Below, piece by piece: positions 2,879-36,599 of a stretch of DNA of 64,000 nucleotides. The notes under the pieces were generated by a model, which had not been told where the DNA came from, searched no databases, and saw nothing but the letters and a program-made list of their open reading frames with translations. Each line of letters starts with the position of its first letter. The stretch's first letter is position 1. A program made the position numbers and the translations under genes. Source of the DNA: Syncephalis fuscata (lineage: Eukaryota > Zoopagomycota > Zoopagomycetes > Zoopagales > Piptocephalidaceae); NCBI GenBank assembly GCA_025786725.1, contig JAHLTZ010000008.1, forward strand, positions 620,001 through 684,000, read 5' to 3'.

Positions 2879-4092
2879 TAGTAATAAATGATGTTTTTTA
2901 ATATTACTTATTGATATACGTAAATAACTAATGTGTGCTTTATTGTTTTAACACAATTGTAATCAAGATACATGTGATTGATTATTGATCATTCTATTAT
3001 GCCAAAAACAACCTGCATGAATTGCGTATAGAGTAAAAAAGTCGATCTATTCGATGTAGCAGATACTTGATCAATAAAAATAGCCATTAAATATTCAATG
3101 CTACGTGCTACTGTTTACAATGAATAAATATATCTACAGTTTATTCAGATTGCAATAATATAGCGATATTTAGAATTATATATTATGTTAGCCTTTTCAC
3201 ATATAATTAAACAATAATGCGTAAACAAAGGTTGATTTGGATATATTATGTATTTAGCCTTAGTGTTTACACTTTATAATATGTAAAATATTTATTTTTA
3301 TCAAGTTAATGGTTTGGAATTGTTTTTTATTATATCTGGTATAAGCATGCCTCTATACGATTGTAATTACTACATTTCTGTATTTAAAAATAATACTAAT
3401 AAACATTTGTATTTGTGTAACACCAATTTACAGCTTTTTGCCTTGTTCTACTATCTTGAGTGTCAAATATGATTTAAAACTAAAAATATTGCTGATACTA
3501 CAAAGAATAGAATTTTATAAATAAAATCTCGTCATAGTTTATTACTAGTTGGCGCTATACACAAGGACGGCGTATTTTAAATATAGTACAAATGACTGGG
3601 GTCAATTACAGGTTAGCTGGTTATGCTGTATTGCCTACTATTTGGTTTGAAATATAATCCCAAAAACCTAAGGCAAAAATATCTCATTACTGTGTAACTA
3701 AATTGTATCCTTAATGTTTTAAAATACTAGACCTATTCTGTAACGCCATAACATATAGACAATGACACAAGGACTGCGTAGAATATTAGCGAATACTTTG
3801 CATGAAAATGGTCTGGGTCTTAGGCTGACTAGTAAGGCCTAACTCACTTTGGGGTCATCAATAATGCAACAGCAATCGATACTGGCTAACGTCGTAATAA
3901 AATTTGCATTATTGTCATTTCAAATCTACTTGTATAAAACCAGGAATAATTGTTTAATTTAAAGAAACCAATACGCACAACAACAACATTCTTGCCGATA
4001 ACAGCTGTGGCCACCACTGGTATAACGTCTATTGCCATTCCTTGCTTTAACAAAGCTATCTTGATTTTAGTTATTCTGCCAAATTTACCATC
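2879..4092. other. AT-rich intergenic spacer
   Basis: About 1.2 kb without a credible coding frame on either strand. It holds the 3' flank of the Exo84 gene and the promoter of the ML protein gene. A TATA-like box, TATAAAA, sits near 3933-3939, about 155 bases before the ML start codon. Confidence 0.6.
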
Positions 4093-4680
4093 ATGAAGTT
4101 TTCATCTGCCTCTATTACCGGCCTTCTTGTCGCCGCCTTCTTCGCCGTCTCCACCAATTCTGCCGCGGTTCTGCCGTCATCTACCGATTTATCTTTGCCC
4201 AATGCTTCCATCCAACCGCTTGATCTGGGCCTAGCTGAAGAAGCCGATAGTTCTGAATTGGACCTATCCAGTTTTGCTTCGGCTAGTGGAAATATCGACT
4301 TTTCACCATGCGATTCTGGAAAACAATACGCAATCAAAGTTCAATCCGTCTCGCTAGATCCAAATCCACCACGTTTCAACAGCCTCCTTAAGGTAACGGT
4401 CGGTGGCGACATCCAGACCGCAATTAACAATGGTGCTACAGCCTATGCCGAGGGTAAAGTTGGTTTGATCAAGTTTACCAAGGTTATTAATGTGTGCGGA
4501 GAGGCGCAAAAGAATAACGGAATCAGCTGCCCGATTGCTCCAAGTAATCGACAAATCACCGTCGGTGTTCAATTACCAAAGGTTCTGATTTCCGTGACCG
4601 CCAATCTTCAAGTTAAGGTTGTAAATCCTGGCAATCAGGAGTTATTCTGCTTCAAAACCAAAGTTCACATTAAGCATTAA
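4093..4680 (+). CDS. Secreted ML-domain (NPC2-like) lipid-binding protein
   Basis: A single-exon 195-residue protein. Residues 1-24 form a typical signal peptide (MKFSSASITGLLVAAFFAVS, then Thr-Asn-Ser-Ala). From about residue 76 the ML fold is recognisable: a first Cys in SPCDSGKQY, LDPNPPRFNSLLKVTVGG, then GVIG-like KVGLIKFTK, a Cys in NVCGEAQ, SCPIAPSNRQ, and a last Cys in LFCFKTKV. These cysteines match the disulfides of fungal phosphatidylglycerol/phosphatidylinositol transfer and NPC2 proteins, which bind sterols or phospholipids in the vacuole or outside the cell. The segment between signal peptide and domain (about 25-75) is acidic and Ser/Leu-rich and may be a propeptide. The exact ligand cannot be told from sequence. 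Confidence 0.88.
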   Translation: MKFSSASITGLLVAAFFAVSTNSAAVLPSSTDLSLPNASIQPLDLGLAEEADSSELDLSSFASASGNIDFSPCDSGKQYAIKVQSVSLDPNPPRFNSLLKVTVGGDIQTAINNGATAYAEGKVGLIKFTKVINVCGEAQKNNGISCPIAPSNRQITVGVQLPKVLISVTANLQVKVVNPGNQELFCFKTKVHIKH

Positions 4681-27369: not shown

Positions 27370-27681
27370 TTAATAGTAGGCCTTGCAAGTAACAGTGGCA
27401 CAGCTTTCACAAGTACTTGGCGTACGTACGCAACGCTGGCCAAAAGGGCAATATGGGCAAGGCAGGAAAATATCTGGGCAGATACGGCACGTAGTAGGCA
27501 TACACTTTCGTGTCGGGCATGAAGTGGCAGTGCCGGGTATGTAGGTACACTTGGTATTGGGAGGACAGCTGTAGCAAGAAGACGGAATCATTGGGCAAGC
27601 AAGTTGGTTATTATATTCATCGGATCCGCTTGCTGAATAGGCCAAGAGTCCTACAATGGTTAGAGCAATGATTGAACGCAT
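27370..27681 (-). CDS. Small secreted Cys-rich protein, Opy2-like repeats (paralog 2)
   Basis: A 103-residue paralog of the 26291-26608 product. The start is placed at 27681 because MRSIIALTIVGLLAYSA aligns with the signal peptide of paralog 1 (MRSILALATVGLFVC). The upstream in-frame Met at 27813 would add a non-matching leader. The mature part keeps CYSCPPNTKCTYIPGTATSC and the closing CESCATVTC. The two genes share strand, size, signal peptide and Cys spacing but differ strongly elsewhere, as expected for a tandem duplication under diversification. Confidence 0.82.
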   Translation of the reverse strand: MRSIIALTIVGLLAYSASGSDEYNNQLACPMIPSSCYSCPPNTKCTYIPGTATSCPTRKCMPTTCRICPDIFLPCPYCPFGQRCVRTPSTCESCATVTCKAYY

Positions 27682-27828
27682 GTTGACTGGTAGTTTGGTG
27701 CTTGGTATGATAAATGAATCGAACGCTAAAATGCTGGTGGCTTGTTTGACTTGTGCTATGAAGGCTGTTGCAAAAGAGTAGAGTACTGATGTTGTTGATA
27801 TTGACAACGCCAACTTGGTGCTATCATA

Positions 27829-27847
27829 GCCGCTATTTATTCTATAG
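27829..27847 (-). promoter_or_regulatory. TATA-like box of Cys-rich gene 2
   Basis: Minus strand reads CTATAGAATAAATAGCGGC about 150 bases before the start codon, matching the element in front of paralog 1. Confidence 0.5.
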
Positions 27848-28456
27848 AGAATGTCGTTGAACTCGATATATTATACTCCATACTCTCACATGCATCATAG
27901 CATCATCATCACCATCATTATTCATTTCGAATGCTAAACTAACATTAATAACACTGTTCACAGCATGTAATAGACATGCATAAATCAATGAACTTTTATT
28001 TTTGTACAGACAATATTTACCACGCTATGAACAACTAGACGTCATACTAATTTTAAATCTACATCATCCATAGTCTCGTCCTTTACAGTCAGACTAAGTA
28101 ACTTACCTAAAATCGCACAAATACGGCCATTGTCAATTGGTGTAACTCACTGGCCGTTATTTTTGCGAAACGGGTCGTTGATGCATTGCCACAAAGGCTA
28201 TGCTGTATAATAATCGGATACACTGCATATTAGTACATACTACTCACGCTCATTCAGGCTATTGATTGACATAACCACCATATGTATATATATATATATA
28301 TGCATGCTTAAATTAGACCAAATGATTTAAAAATAAACGAATGCTTTATAAACAGTTCACTGAGTATTAAAAATAGACATTCGTGCATGTAAAAGGAGAA
28401 AAACATAGATATCAAGTAAATATATGTATTAAATAAAGTCATACAATATAAAAAAG
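27848..28456. other. Spacer
   Basis: Contains (CAT)n and (AT)n short runs (near 27900 and 28286-28303). Nothing coding recognised. Confidence 0.4.
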
Positions 28457-32558: not shown

Positions 32559-34918
32559 ATGAAGCTTTCTATTGCCGTCGTTTGCACCATTGCCGTGGTT
32601 CTTGTGGCCAGTACAGCCATGGTGGATGCTAAACCAGCTTTAGTTCGTCGTGATGGTATGTTACAATATCACTAAATATAATAGCATTTGTTTATTAACA
32701 GTATTTTTAATTAATGACTATAATAGAGCGTAAGTTATATTGTATATCAATTGATTACTCACTAATTATATACCATGTACTGTGTCCATCAACAAATAAA
32801 TATCAATAGGTGGTAGGTTGTATTACATATTAATAGAACATACAATAATTACATACCATTTACTTTATTCATTAACAACTTAATATTAGCGGAATGTAAG
32901 TTGTATTGTATATTAATTGAACATTGACTAATAATATATTGTGAATTGTGCGTACCAACAACTCAATATTAATAGGTCGTAAGTAACATTGTATATTGAT
33001 TGACTATGTACTAACCACGTATTACGAACCATGTGTATCAACAACTTAATACTAATAGGCAGTAAGTTATATTGCATATTAACTGACTATGCACTAATTT
33101 TATACCATGCATTGTGTATATCAACAAATTAATACCAGAACAATGTAAGTTGTATTGCATATCACTTGATTATTGGCTAATTATATATTATGTGTTGCGT
33201 GTATCAACAACTTAATGTTAATAGGTCGTAAGTAGCATTGTATACTAACTGACTATGCACTGACCACGTGCTATGCATTATGTGTATAAAAACTTGATGA
33301 AATAGTTGGTAAATAGTATTGTATATTGCTGACTTATAAATTAATTATATACCATGTATTGTGCGCATCAACAAATTAATATAATAGCTGGTAAGTTATG
33401 TAGTATATGAATTAATTACTCGCTAATTATGTGTCATGTACCGTGTGTATCAACAAATTAATGATATAGAATGTAAGTATTATTGTACATTATTGGCCTA
33501 TGCATTAACTATGCTATTTACTGATTGTACCAATTAATTAATATTAATAGGCGGTAAGTTGTATTGTGTATTAATTATTATTTACTGATTGTACTAATTA
33601 TTTGATATTAATAGCTTGTAAGTGGCATTTTATATTAGCTAATTGTACATTAATCATGCTATTTATTGATAATATCGATTATTTAATACTAATAGGGCGT
33701 AAGTGATATTGTATATTAACTGACTATACATCAACTATGCTATTTATTGATTATACTAATTATTTAATATTAATAGCTCGTAAGTTGTATTGTATATTAA
33801 CTGGCTATACATTAACTATGCTATTTACTGATGGTATTAATTATTTAATACTAATAGAATGTAAGTAATACTATATATTAACTGACTATATATCAACTAT
33901 GCTATTTACTGATTGTGCCAATTATTTAATATTAATAGGCTGTAAGTGGTATTGTATATTAGCTGATTATATAATAACTATCCTATTTACTGATTGTGCC
34001 AATTATTTAATATTAATAGATTGTAAGTGTTATTGTATATTAGCTGACTGTACATTAACCATACTATTTACTGGTTGTGCCAATTATTTAATATTAATAG
34101 ACAGTAAGTGCTATTGTATATTAACTGACTGTTCACTAATTATATATTATGTACTGTATGTATCAACAAATTAATATTAATAGAATGTAAGTTATCGTGT
34201 ATTAATTGGCTATGTACTAACCGCATTCTATTTATTGTATGTATCAACAAATCAATATTAATAGGTTGTAAGTTGTGTTGCGTATTAACTAACTATTCAT
34301 TACTTATATACCATGTATTGTGTTCATCAATAACTTAATATTAATAGTTTGTAAGTGGTATTGTATATTAATTAATTACTTACTAATTACATGTTATTTA
34401 CTGTATCCATCAAAAACTTAATATTAATAGACAGTAAGTTGTGCTTTATATCAATAGAACATGCGCTAATTATATACTATGGATTGTATTCACCAACAAT
34501 TTGATATCAATAGATTGTAAGTGGTATTGTATATTAATTGATCACTCATTAACTACATGTTATTCACCATGCGTATCAACAACTTAATACTAATAGGTCG
34601 TAAGTAATATTGTATAGTTTTAAATTATAAATTAATTATATATCATGCATTGCGTATATCAACAACTTAATGCCATAGTTGGTAAGTTGTATTATATATT
34701 AGCTAACTATATACTAAGCACATATCATATTTTTGCCTATTGACAACTTAATATCAATAGGCAGTAAGTAGTATTGTATATTGCTAACTTATAAATTAAC
34801 TATAATATTTACGGACTGTACCAATTGTTTAATATTAATAGTTTGTAAGTAGTATTGTATATTGACTAACTATGCATTAATTATATGACATATAATATCT
34901 TTATTTACAAATACAGAA
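32559..34918 (+). CDS. Secreted six-Cys peptide encoded by one normal exon plus 27 microexons of 3 or 6 nt
   Basis: Exon 1 (32559-32655) encodes a signal peptide (MKLSIAVVCTIAVVLVASTA, to about residue 24) and a short pro-segment with a dibasic site (KPALVRR|D), and ends in phase 1 before GTATGT. Microexons start at 32727, 32810, 32890 (6 nt), 32976, 33059, 33139 (6 nt), 33225, 33306, 33388, 33470, 33551, 33615, 33696, 33777, 33858, 33939, 34020, 34101, 34184, 34265, 34348, 34431, 34514, 34597, 34679, 34761 and 34842. All others are 3 nt. Each lies between an intron ending AG (mostly ATTAATAG) and GTAAGT, GTAGGT or GTAAAT. Joined, they read without a stop; the last T plus AA at 34917-34918 makes TAA. 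The 61-residue precursor has Cys at 37, 41, 45, 50, 54 and 58, a symmetric C-x3-C-x3-C-x4-C-x3-C-x3-C pattern suggesting a disulfide-linked helical hairpin. Biological role unknown. Confidence 0.85.
32730..34916 (+). repeat. Tandem array of 27 intron-microexon units, period about 81 bp
   Basis: Each unit is an intron of 77-80 nt (one of 61 nt, the last of 72 nt) plus a 3- or 6-nt exon. The intron bodies are clearly homologous (GTAAGTnGTATTGTATATTAA at the start, AATATTAATAG at the end), while the triplets between them vary from unit to unit. Two intron subtypes occur: one with TATCAACAA(C/A)TTAAT before the acceptor (about 32730-33469 and 34104-34760), the other with CTATTTACTGATTGTACCAA (about 33473-34100 and 34764-34841). 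Confidence 0.92.
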
Positions 34919-36599
34919 TAATTGATGGTTTCAAGACGTTAGTATTGTTAGTGCAATCGAACCACTATTCCAATACAATTTAGGTATATATTCGGTAAAA
35001 ATCAAGATTATTTGACAACTACGCCGTCCAGTCTATTTATATATCAAGTTTTGGCCAATGCTCCGGTTTATCCAGTCTTTAATCAATAGAATCATTATGT
35101 TACCAACAAACTTGTATCTAGTTGTTTCTATTCAACTGTGCAAGCTTATAGTAATAAACCTATGGTTCCATTTTAATTATATACAATCAAATTGCTATAT
35201 CTATAATTATGTTCTATTTACATTCAATGATTAACTATTAATCAAATAGTTAAATTAACAAAATGTCTATAATCGTATCGTCTAAGCTAATAGGCATATA
35301 TTGGTATGGATAGTAGCAAAGCTATTATTATCGTATAGCCAAATAATAGTATGCTGAAATTAAATAAATACGCTTTTCTAATAAAACATGACAATAAAGC
35401 ATAGAATATATAAAGGAAAATAGATAGATAATTTAGATACATGAATATTGATAGCGAAACTATATTGTATGCAATTAACTAAGAGTCATGAACGAAATAA
35501 AGCAAAATTTACTAAAGAAATAAAGCTAGTAATAAACTTTTAGATTTTGTTAATATAGTTTTCTATAACTTACAATGTTAATGATATAGATGGACATATA
35601 GTATATGTATGTGGGATAGATATGTACAGTCCAATAATAATAATGATAAGTAGATAGATTAATGACCAATGACACTCAACAGCCAGTTTCATCTTCAATA
35701 AAGCGGATATTTAGTTTAAATACGTGGTTATTATAGCTATTTAACTGCCAAATCACATTAAACAACCAATAGCATGCTCAATATTGTGGAAAAAGTGATC
35801 TTTATTTAGTTAATAAAAATATCATAAGATTTATACAAATCAAGTGGTTTAAATGATCCGTCACAGCACCCTCTTAAGCTTCTTTCGCCATGTTCCACAA
35901 CTCTTTTAAATTGAACATTGGAGCGACTACTGCGACATTTAAAATGAACGTTACAAGTAGATTGTTCTAGTTTATCAATGACAAATGCATGTTGACGGTT
36001 TTATTTTGCACATCTTCACTCTTGCTTGATACACCAACTAATTAATTAAGTTGATCAAAGCAATAACACTTTTATGTAATTCGGAATTATTTAATTGCTA
36101 TATCTGATATTCAAAATACTCTAAACCAATCTAATCTTATTTGTTGGTTAGATTTAAATCTAAAATATTTATTAATTAAACAGTTTTTGTTTGCATTACA
36201 CTTTATTTATTTTGATAGTTACTTCATTAGCAATTTGTATTTATTCAATAAAAAACGTTTATTTCAGCACAACCACTGTTCAACACAATTATGCTAATCT
36301 TTACATAGATGTTTTTGTATATGTTTTTTAGTTGCATTTACTACAAGTATATTTTGAAAGTTTTTTGACAGATAAAACACAATTGGTACTGCTGTTAATA
36401 TTGCTACAGTTAACTAAACTACGTTAATAAACAAAGTTTTAAATTAAAATTTGTTACATTTATTGTAATTGCCTTTTTTCTTATCAGGCATTTTTAGCTT
36501 TTTCAAAATTTATACAATTACAATCTTTGCTATAAATATGCTAATTTGATCTATTGTTATAAGCGAAAATCACTTAATATTAATACTATTTTTTTATTA
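34919..36599. other. 3' flank of the microexon gene and degenerate AT-rich DNA
   Basis: The start is the presumed 3' UTR of the microexon gene. Around 35850-36000 a slightly GC-richer part contains a broken minus-strand frame with spaced cysteines, possibly another transposon relic. Otherwise nothing recognisable. Confidence 0.4.

Follow-up and report, generated by a model that had tools for sequence, protein, structure and literature searches.

Can the mature part of a secreted peptide be spliced together from exons of a single codon? This question is raised by a locus on the forward strand of the window, the 64,000-nucleotide stretch of DNA analysed here (G000:C278:620001-684000 of the 28.95-Mb, 299-contig Syncephalis fuscata genome). 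The species is placed in the Zoopagales, Zoopagomycota, and Syncephalis is called mycoparasitic (PMC10386755). An earlier note on the window had read a signal-peptide exon followed by 27 microexons of 3 or 6 nt, together spelling a secreted six-cysteine peptide. Having compared the sequences of its relatives across the genome, we consider it very probable that the locus is a functional member of a large S. fuscata family, whose triplets are serially spliced into a secreted, disulfide-rich peptide. The window gene by itself is statistically not decisive; the family is.

Structure of the window gene

The segment 32100-32558 (+) holds the upstream region and 5′ UTR and, by alignment with the intronless relative L011, is common to other family members including L011 itself. 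Exon 1 (32559-32655, +) encodes the putative signal peptide and the pro-part MKLSIAVVCTIAVVLVASTAMVDAKPALVRR and ends in phase 1 at GTATGT, as given by direct reading, by the splice-site decoder and by a genome pattern; its signal-peptide-like character and the dibasic site that follows were both read by eye. The array (32656-34916, +; decoder) comprises 28 introns, each 61-80 nt long, with 27 microexons between them. This architecture, as first described, was found again on direct re-reading and was recovered by the decoder, which is blind to frame and stops. In order along the forward strand, the decoder places the microexons as follows: 1, AGC (32727-32729); 2, GTG (32810-32812); 3, CGGAAT (32890-32895); 4, GTC (32976-32978); 5, GCA (33059-33061); 6, AACAAT (33139-33144); 7, GTC (33225-33227); 8, TTG (33306-33308); 9, CTG (33388-33390); 10, AAT (33470-33472); 11, GCG (33551-33553); 12, CTT (33615-33617); 13, GGC (33696-33698); 14, CTC (33777-33779); 15, AAT (33858-33860); 16, GCT (33939-33941); 17, ATT (34020-34022); 18, ACA (34101-34103); 19, AAT (34184-34186); 20, GTT (34265-34267); 21, TTT (34348-34350); 22, ACA (34431-34433); 23, ATT (34514-34516); 24, GTC (34597-34599); 25, TTG (34679-34681); 26, GCA (34761-34763); and 27, TTT (34842-34844).

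Twenty-five of these measure 3 nt and two (3 and 6) measure 6 nt, a total of 87 nt lying between 32727 and 34844; the introns sum to 25 times this length. Codons span the introns, the last base of one exon being completed by the first two of the next, and the decoder finds one phase throughout all 27 microexons, as in intact relatives. The stop codon, T|AA, is formed across the last junction at 34917. The terminal exon (34917-35173, +; direct reading and decoder) finishes the stop with its first two bases and continues as a 3′ UTR containing the family stretch TGGTTTCAAGAC. It carries an AATAAA-type signal at 35153, and its end is placed, presumptively, just past this signal by the start of the A-runs in the intronless copies L041 and L043. 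The fully joined message has a coding length of 186 nt, and its product is the signal peptide, LVRR and then DERAECRKQCLAECAWPQCYYKCFYNCLGI and a stop. The cysteine spacing of this peptide, C-x3-C-x3-C-x4-C-x3-C-x3-C, agrees with the earlier note. Elsewhere in the window we note a Cys-rich frame at 27370-27870 (-) with an Opy2 domain match (E 2.7e-9) and, at 4051-4680 (+), a frame matching the ML (lipid-binding) domain (E 1.4e-19).

Order of the triplets

The decoder relies solely on weights for donors and acceptors and on penalties for length, and was applied to 38 loci. Versions that lacked GC donors and had strict acceptors missed exons or read on through introns and were rejected; once GC donors were added, units were regained and a C-x2-C-x3-C motif emerged unasked in L016, L018 and L024. 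As the null, exon order was shuffled within each run, which keeps the triplets and destroys the joins. Over all 38 loci, 3 of 992 codons are stops against 49.3 ± 5.3 expected by shuffling, and 168 Cys are encoded against 88.3 ± 6.7. A one-per-subfamily set of 24 genes with 715 microexons (L032 dropped by hand) has 1 stop in 709 codons against 35.9 ± 4.6 (minimum 21 in 5000 shuffles), and its 124 Cys are about twice the expectation of 63.9 ± 5.7. For the window gene alone the values are 0 stops against 2.1 ± 1.0 and 6 Cys against 3.9 ± 1.3 in order-shuffled arrays. The non-randomness claimed for the joined sequence thus stands for the family, while the window gene alone does not decide it. Comparing frames alone was rejected as weaker than shuffling; triplets read as codons give 4/745 stops and the third frame 56/709.

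Neighbour joins in the same 24 genes contain 1 stop in 676 (35.6 expected). Stops number 42 of 643 at skip-1 joins (33.8 expected), 34 of 610 at skip-2 (32.2), 37 of 577 at skip-3 (30.6) and 22 of 544 at skip-4 (29.2), the last being slightly low. Because stops are avoided at neighbour joins and not at skip-1 to skip-3 joins, selection appears to act on the full ordered join. Genome comparison shows this predicted joined order to be what selection sees. The order-dependent lack of stops, lost at the skip joins, supports a secreted six-Cys peptide built from 3- and 6-nt exons.

Size and make-up of the family

The window gene belongs to a large S. fuscata family of genes for small, predicted secreted peptides. 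A 17-base pattern for the start of exon 1, with one C/T choice, has 172 matches in the genome (control 0). The strict site TTAATANTAATAG-N3-GTAAGT occurs 1137 times genome-wide (control 0); with N4 or N5 spacing it occurs once, in L010, where the exon is of 4 nt. A looser site, TAATAGNNNGTAAGT, is found 2716 times (control 5) and catches 678 of 1010 decoded microexons, so the genome would hold about 4000 microexons if the fetched genes are typical.

We classified 115 copies, made up of 40 scored copies (from 273 candidates) and 75 further start-pattern places. Overall, 83 are arrays, 24 are intronless and 8 are other. The scored copies comprise 37 arrays and three intronless members (L011, L041, L043). 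The further places, viewed over 190-460 nt only, comprise 46 with at least one array site, 21 called intronless on a closed frame of at least 50 codons and no donor, and 8 other. Decoding reached the conserved 3′ end at 22 of the 38 loci and stopped short of it at 16; 13 of the 22 are intact by a strict rule, and the other nine include odd-length exons and early stops. A divergent member, L135 (G000:C1:574700-577200; MKFSIAVVCAILV...), has the same one-codon-exon array design.

The longest decoded array, L046, has 49 microexons and four GC-AG introns. A mirrored set of sites lies near C1:610000. Two array genes 19 kb apart, at C2:225326 and C2:244718, have nearly identical triplet series, pointing to a segmental duplication of recent date. 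In each of L014, L015, L022, L023, L024, L031, L034, L039, L045, L047 and L077, one array intron holds a SINE-like insert in antisense orientation, about 400 nt long and seemingly with tRNA A and B boxes (by eye). It is present in 10 of the 40 fetched copies, and the array continues beyond the insert where read further.

A genome search with one decoded peptide, run with no positive control, gave no match. Protein searches returned only S. fuscata rows, among them six hypothetical proteins found with an intronless member, and none of the nine annotated proteins returned is a decoded array peptide. The annotated tails of P0008 and P0009 (NCBI, S. fuscata), RKLYCILTDYALIACY..., resemble array-intron read-through. 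Two annotated proteins thus appear to read through array introns, a blind spot of annotation.

Splice signals

The median family intron is 78 nt long, and the window array repeats in tandem with a period of about 82 nt. GTAAGT is the donor at 884 of 1020 array sites, possibly because a 3-nt exon of free sequence helps U1 snRNA little. A CTRAY element lies 15-60 nt upstream of AG in 827 of 964 array introns, a count made with no chance control. Borders are GC-AG in 25 of 1058 array introns and GT-AG in the rest. With these borders and the branch-site-like element, the array introns have the features of spliceosomal introns, and in close pairs their donors and acceptors vary less than the rest of the intron.

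The earlier suggestion that special or recursive splicing may be involved finds no support here. Array sites are GT-AG or GC-AG, with borders like those of two ordinary introns of the window. These introns, in an MFS gene and a kinase gene, are of 50 and 51 nt (splice positions read by eye) and have the borders GTAAGT...ACTAG and GTAGGT...AATAG. It therefore appears that the array uses similar signals in longer introns. Recursive zero-length exons were sought as GTAAGT at 0 nt after TAATANTAATAG and were found at none of 535 sites; the distance is 3 nt at 483 of these, and 46 have no GTAAGT within 40 nt.

Intronless relatives

Twenty-three contiguous members (20 distinct mature parts; L043 excluded) were compared with 23 decoded arrays, using 200 order shuffles each. 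The protein match to intronless members beats all 200 shuffles for 14 of 23 arrays, or 12 of 19 without L010, L013, L037 and L040, in whose reading odd units were left out; it fails to do so for nine, including the window gene. The DNA match beats all shuffles for three arrays (L044, L016 and the window gene) and stays below that mark in 20 of 23. The window gene has a protein score of 44, with 3 of 200 shuffles as high, and a DNA score of 31 (0/200). The best pair, array L016 (PAQCAACVENCKRRTGLDWGKCRNGSCRTIC) and intronless L082 (PADCKACIKDCTRWWRLDYDKCRYKSCRDYC), shares 16 of 31 residues ungapped and scores 94 against a shuffled maximum of 46. In the reverse test, intronless L041 matches the joined L044 microexons at 35 of 44 nt (0/200 shuffles); the scores of L079, L011 and L078 are equalled by 3, 5 and 197 of 200 shuffles. 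Genome comparison thus shows that intronless members match the microexons in their predicted joined form, in protein and in few cases in DNA, which lends the spliced six-Cys peptide further support.

A flank tree (promoter, exon 1, 3′ UTR) pairs L041 with L044 as sisters (87/80, not starred). Lying about 20 kb apart, array L077 and intronless L079 have nearly identical flanks (100/99) and related mature parts, ALEPCWRPRRPLWCP and GWKPCWPRPWC. For L011, L041 and L043, homology between intronless and array genes breaks off at the donor of exon 1 (94-97 of the coding sequence); for L078 (91) and L079 (78-81) it does so just before that donor. It restarts within 13 nt of the decoded terminal exon in most top matches; the exceptions, L047 and L040, both have poorly decoded ends. 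Upstream, homology reaches 525-576 nt before the ATG in L011 and L041 and 99 nt in L043, where it is confined to -99 to +470. In L041 and L043 it ends at an A-run (7 and 5 A) just past an AATAAA-type signal; the signal was located in 11 of 14 array genes tried, and all 11 continue past that site with no such run.

L043 (G000:C253) is intronless, is without the usual start codon and is flanked by the near-repeat TACACTAATGTG / TACACTAGTGTG. Neither arrays nor intronless members match its mature part better than shuffles do, so its parent may have been an intronless gene. All three marks of retroposition (no shared promoter, an A-run, a flanking duplication) are present in L043; L041 has the A-run and a shared promoter, L011 shares both flanks and L079 shares the part fetched. 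In sequence, L043 has the look of a spliced message that was retroposed, and L041 resembles one joined to a genomic promoter. Simple retroposition as the one origin of all intronless copies was rejected: it suits L043, but in L011 and L041 the promoter is held in common with array genes over 525-576 nt. On a small flank tree that includes three intronless rows, the arrays fall to one side with support 81. Once L078 and L079 were included and L043 was omitted, the intronless rows, now four, do not form one clade (p-AU 2.5e-5). A tree of exon 1 with 106 rows proved too short for direction; it gives 12 changes, at least two forced by starred branches.

How arrays change

Array genes align unit by unit, with whole units as gaps, in an alignment that has no null and whose best path inflates identity. 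Within a gene, introns close to each other are more similar than those far apart, at 0.779 for lag 1 and 0.734 for lag 20 in 18 genes. Where two units have the same triplet, their downstream introns are 0.784 similar (n = 444) against 0.747 (n = 8995) in 22 genes, the permutation maximum being 0.764. In L044, units 14-21 are copied to 24-31; seven introns are at least 0.94 identical ten units on, six of them with the same triplet. Shorter copied blocks are seen in L034 (offset 13) and L037 (offset 11). In-frame block duplications of the predicted codon-plus-intron units therefore exist.

L016 and L024 have identical residues over the microexons, despite intron differences at 68 of the 1853 places aligned. 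In five close pairs Cys is conserved at 20 of 20 positions, and 32 of 372 microexon places have changed against 325 of 8083 in introns. Synonymous (0.080) and non-synonymous (0.077) rates in these pairs are equal, and positive selection is therefore not claimed. Pooled rates of 0.163 against 0.060 come from 8 of 15 pairs picked after they had been seen.

The peptide

The decoded window peptide has no Pfam match. Decoded L016 scores 21.7 bits against Toxin_2 (gathering cut-off 25.1; E 2.5e-4); with L016 below the cut-off and the window peptide unmatched, membership of this scorpion short toxin family was rejected. L082 is likewise sub-threshold against Vanabin-2 (15.2 against 25). Both matches probably reflect Cys spacing. 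The six-Cys pattern, which was written after the peptides had been seen, occurs in 9 of 23 arrays, where 1000 rounds of shuffling give a mean of 0.00 and a maximum of 1. It is seen in 8 of 19 arrays once the four copies whose odd units were read past are set aside, and in 3 of 4 intronless members. AlphaFold2, run on the single sequence of the annotated member P0007, modelled the mature part with three helices (block pLDDT 74-80, mean 66.3, pTM 0.44). The model offers a hint of a three-helix mature fold. A PDB sequence search with the mature part of L082 returned two matches (E 1.5 and 7.4), taken as chance.

Proposed mechanism and alternatives

We propose that the pre-mRNA opens with a signal-peptide exon, behind which 27 exons of one or two codons stand in tandem between short introns, and that the ordinary spliceosome would remove all of these introns by intron definition. 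Removal would most likely be serial, 5′ to 3′, each triplet joining the growing upstream exon before the next cut. Full inclusion would give a secreted peptide, presumably rich in disulfides, probably cleaved by Kex2 and probably helical. As intact units carry whole codons in one phase, copying or loss of units keeps the frame, and recombination between similar introns could lengthen, shorten or shuffle the peptide in this way. The intronless members would most simply be spliced messages copied back into the genome, a presumed route of intron loss. By analogy, the peptide may have a role in mycoparasitism. A stronger version, in which the gene is a set of codon cassettes with about one codon per exon (about 4000 exons in an estimated hundred or more genes), constitutive inclusion and introns serving as recombination handles, seems to us evenly poised between right and wrong.

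Other readings have to be weighed. The array could be one long intron or repeat DNA, its triplets meaningless and exon 1 joined to the 3′ end. It is indeed an approximately 82-nt tandem repeat, and the window gene alone fits chance for stops; this reading is nonetheless scarcely credible given 1 stop where 35.9 are expected in 24 genes, a signal that vanishes once joins skip one, two or three exons, similar peptides spelled by intronless members, and spacing that is N3 genome-wide and not N4-5. If instead the triplets are joined in varying combinations, skipping of symmetric microexons could yield many peptides, as has been proposed for schistosome micro-exon genes (MEGs), and skipping any 3- or 6-nt exon would keep the frame. 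Stops, however, are avoided only at direct neighbours (skip-4 being slightly low) and skipping products are not visibly under selection, so we judge such a gene improbable.

That the arrays are decaying relics, only intronless copies being functional, would agree with the existence of broken arrays and with the SINE-like insert in 10 of 40 fetched copies. It is very unlikely in view of the residues that L016 and L024 retain despite 68/1853 intron differences, the 20/20 conserved Cys in five pairs, and the excess of arrays (83) over intronless copies (24) among the 115 examined. Intronless genes might also be ancestral, an introner-like element having inserted introns between codons. The flank tree with three intronless rows, in which arrays fall on one side with support 81, can be read in this sense. 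Such a history would need same-phase insertion at nearly every codon, and against it stand the failure of four intronless rows to form one clade (p-AU 2.5e-5), the position of L077 beside L079 (100/99), the A-runs of L041 and L043 at the poly(A)-like site of the family, as in cDNA, and the copying of units together with their triplets. We regard it as unlikely.

Should the codon-cassette version hold, a fast-evolving secreted peptide could gain, lose and copy whole codons with its frame unbroken. Twenty-seven successive one- or two-codon exons, with almost no room for exonic signals, would take exon and intron definition to its limit, and the family makes it testable how the spliceosome orders dozens of 3-nt exons.

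Comparison with known systems

By its architecture, this is an extreme micro-exon gene family that probably evolved independently. Literature searches, with most subscription papers outside their coverage, found neither tandem one-codon exons nor Syncephalis microexons. The exons of schistosome MEGs are mostly several codons long and of varied length. MEGs encode secreted parasite proteins, have the greater part of their coding region in very small symmetrical exons and show accelerated evolution (PMC4350168). The likeness, one of architecture, lies in tiny symmetrical exons and, as predicted here, in secretion. Unlike MEGs, the S. fuscata genes have internal exons of nearly always one codon, near-equal tandem units and intronless relatives, and the exon skipping proposed for MEGs has left no clear trace in the arrays.

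Aphid bicycle genes have exons tens of nucleotides long. They are described as fast-evolving putative effectors with about 17 exons on average and many small internal exons, almost all of which begin at codon position 2 (PMC9168663). Many small internal exons starting at codon position 2 are likewise found in the S. fuscata arrays. The bicycle genes as so described differ in being an insect family with about 17 exons, and are likened here by architecture.

Exons as short as those of the arrays have been reported from spliced messages elsewhere, with 1-nt exons in Arabidopsis APC11 and Fusarium CYP621A and a 3-bp exon in Drosophila homothorax (PMC4674806, PMC12940212, PMC7392893). There, one tiny exon of 1-3 nt interrupts an otherwise ordinary gene, whereas in S. 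fuscata dozens build the mature domain. Introners put introns of nearly the same sequence into many sites, and when introns are gained through tandem duplication, the piece duplicated carries splice sites. In contrast to both, each copied S. fuscata unit brings its own codon-bearing exon. The family offers a natural experiment on why micro-exon genes evolved more than once for parasite-secreted proteins.
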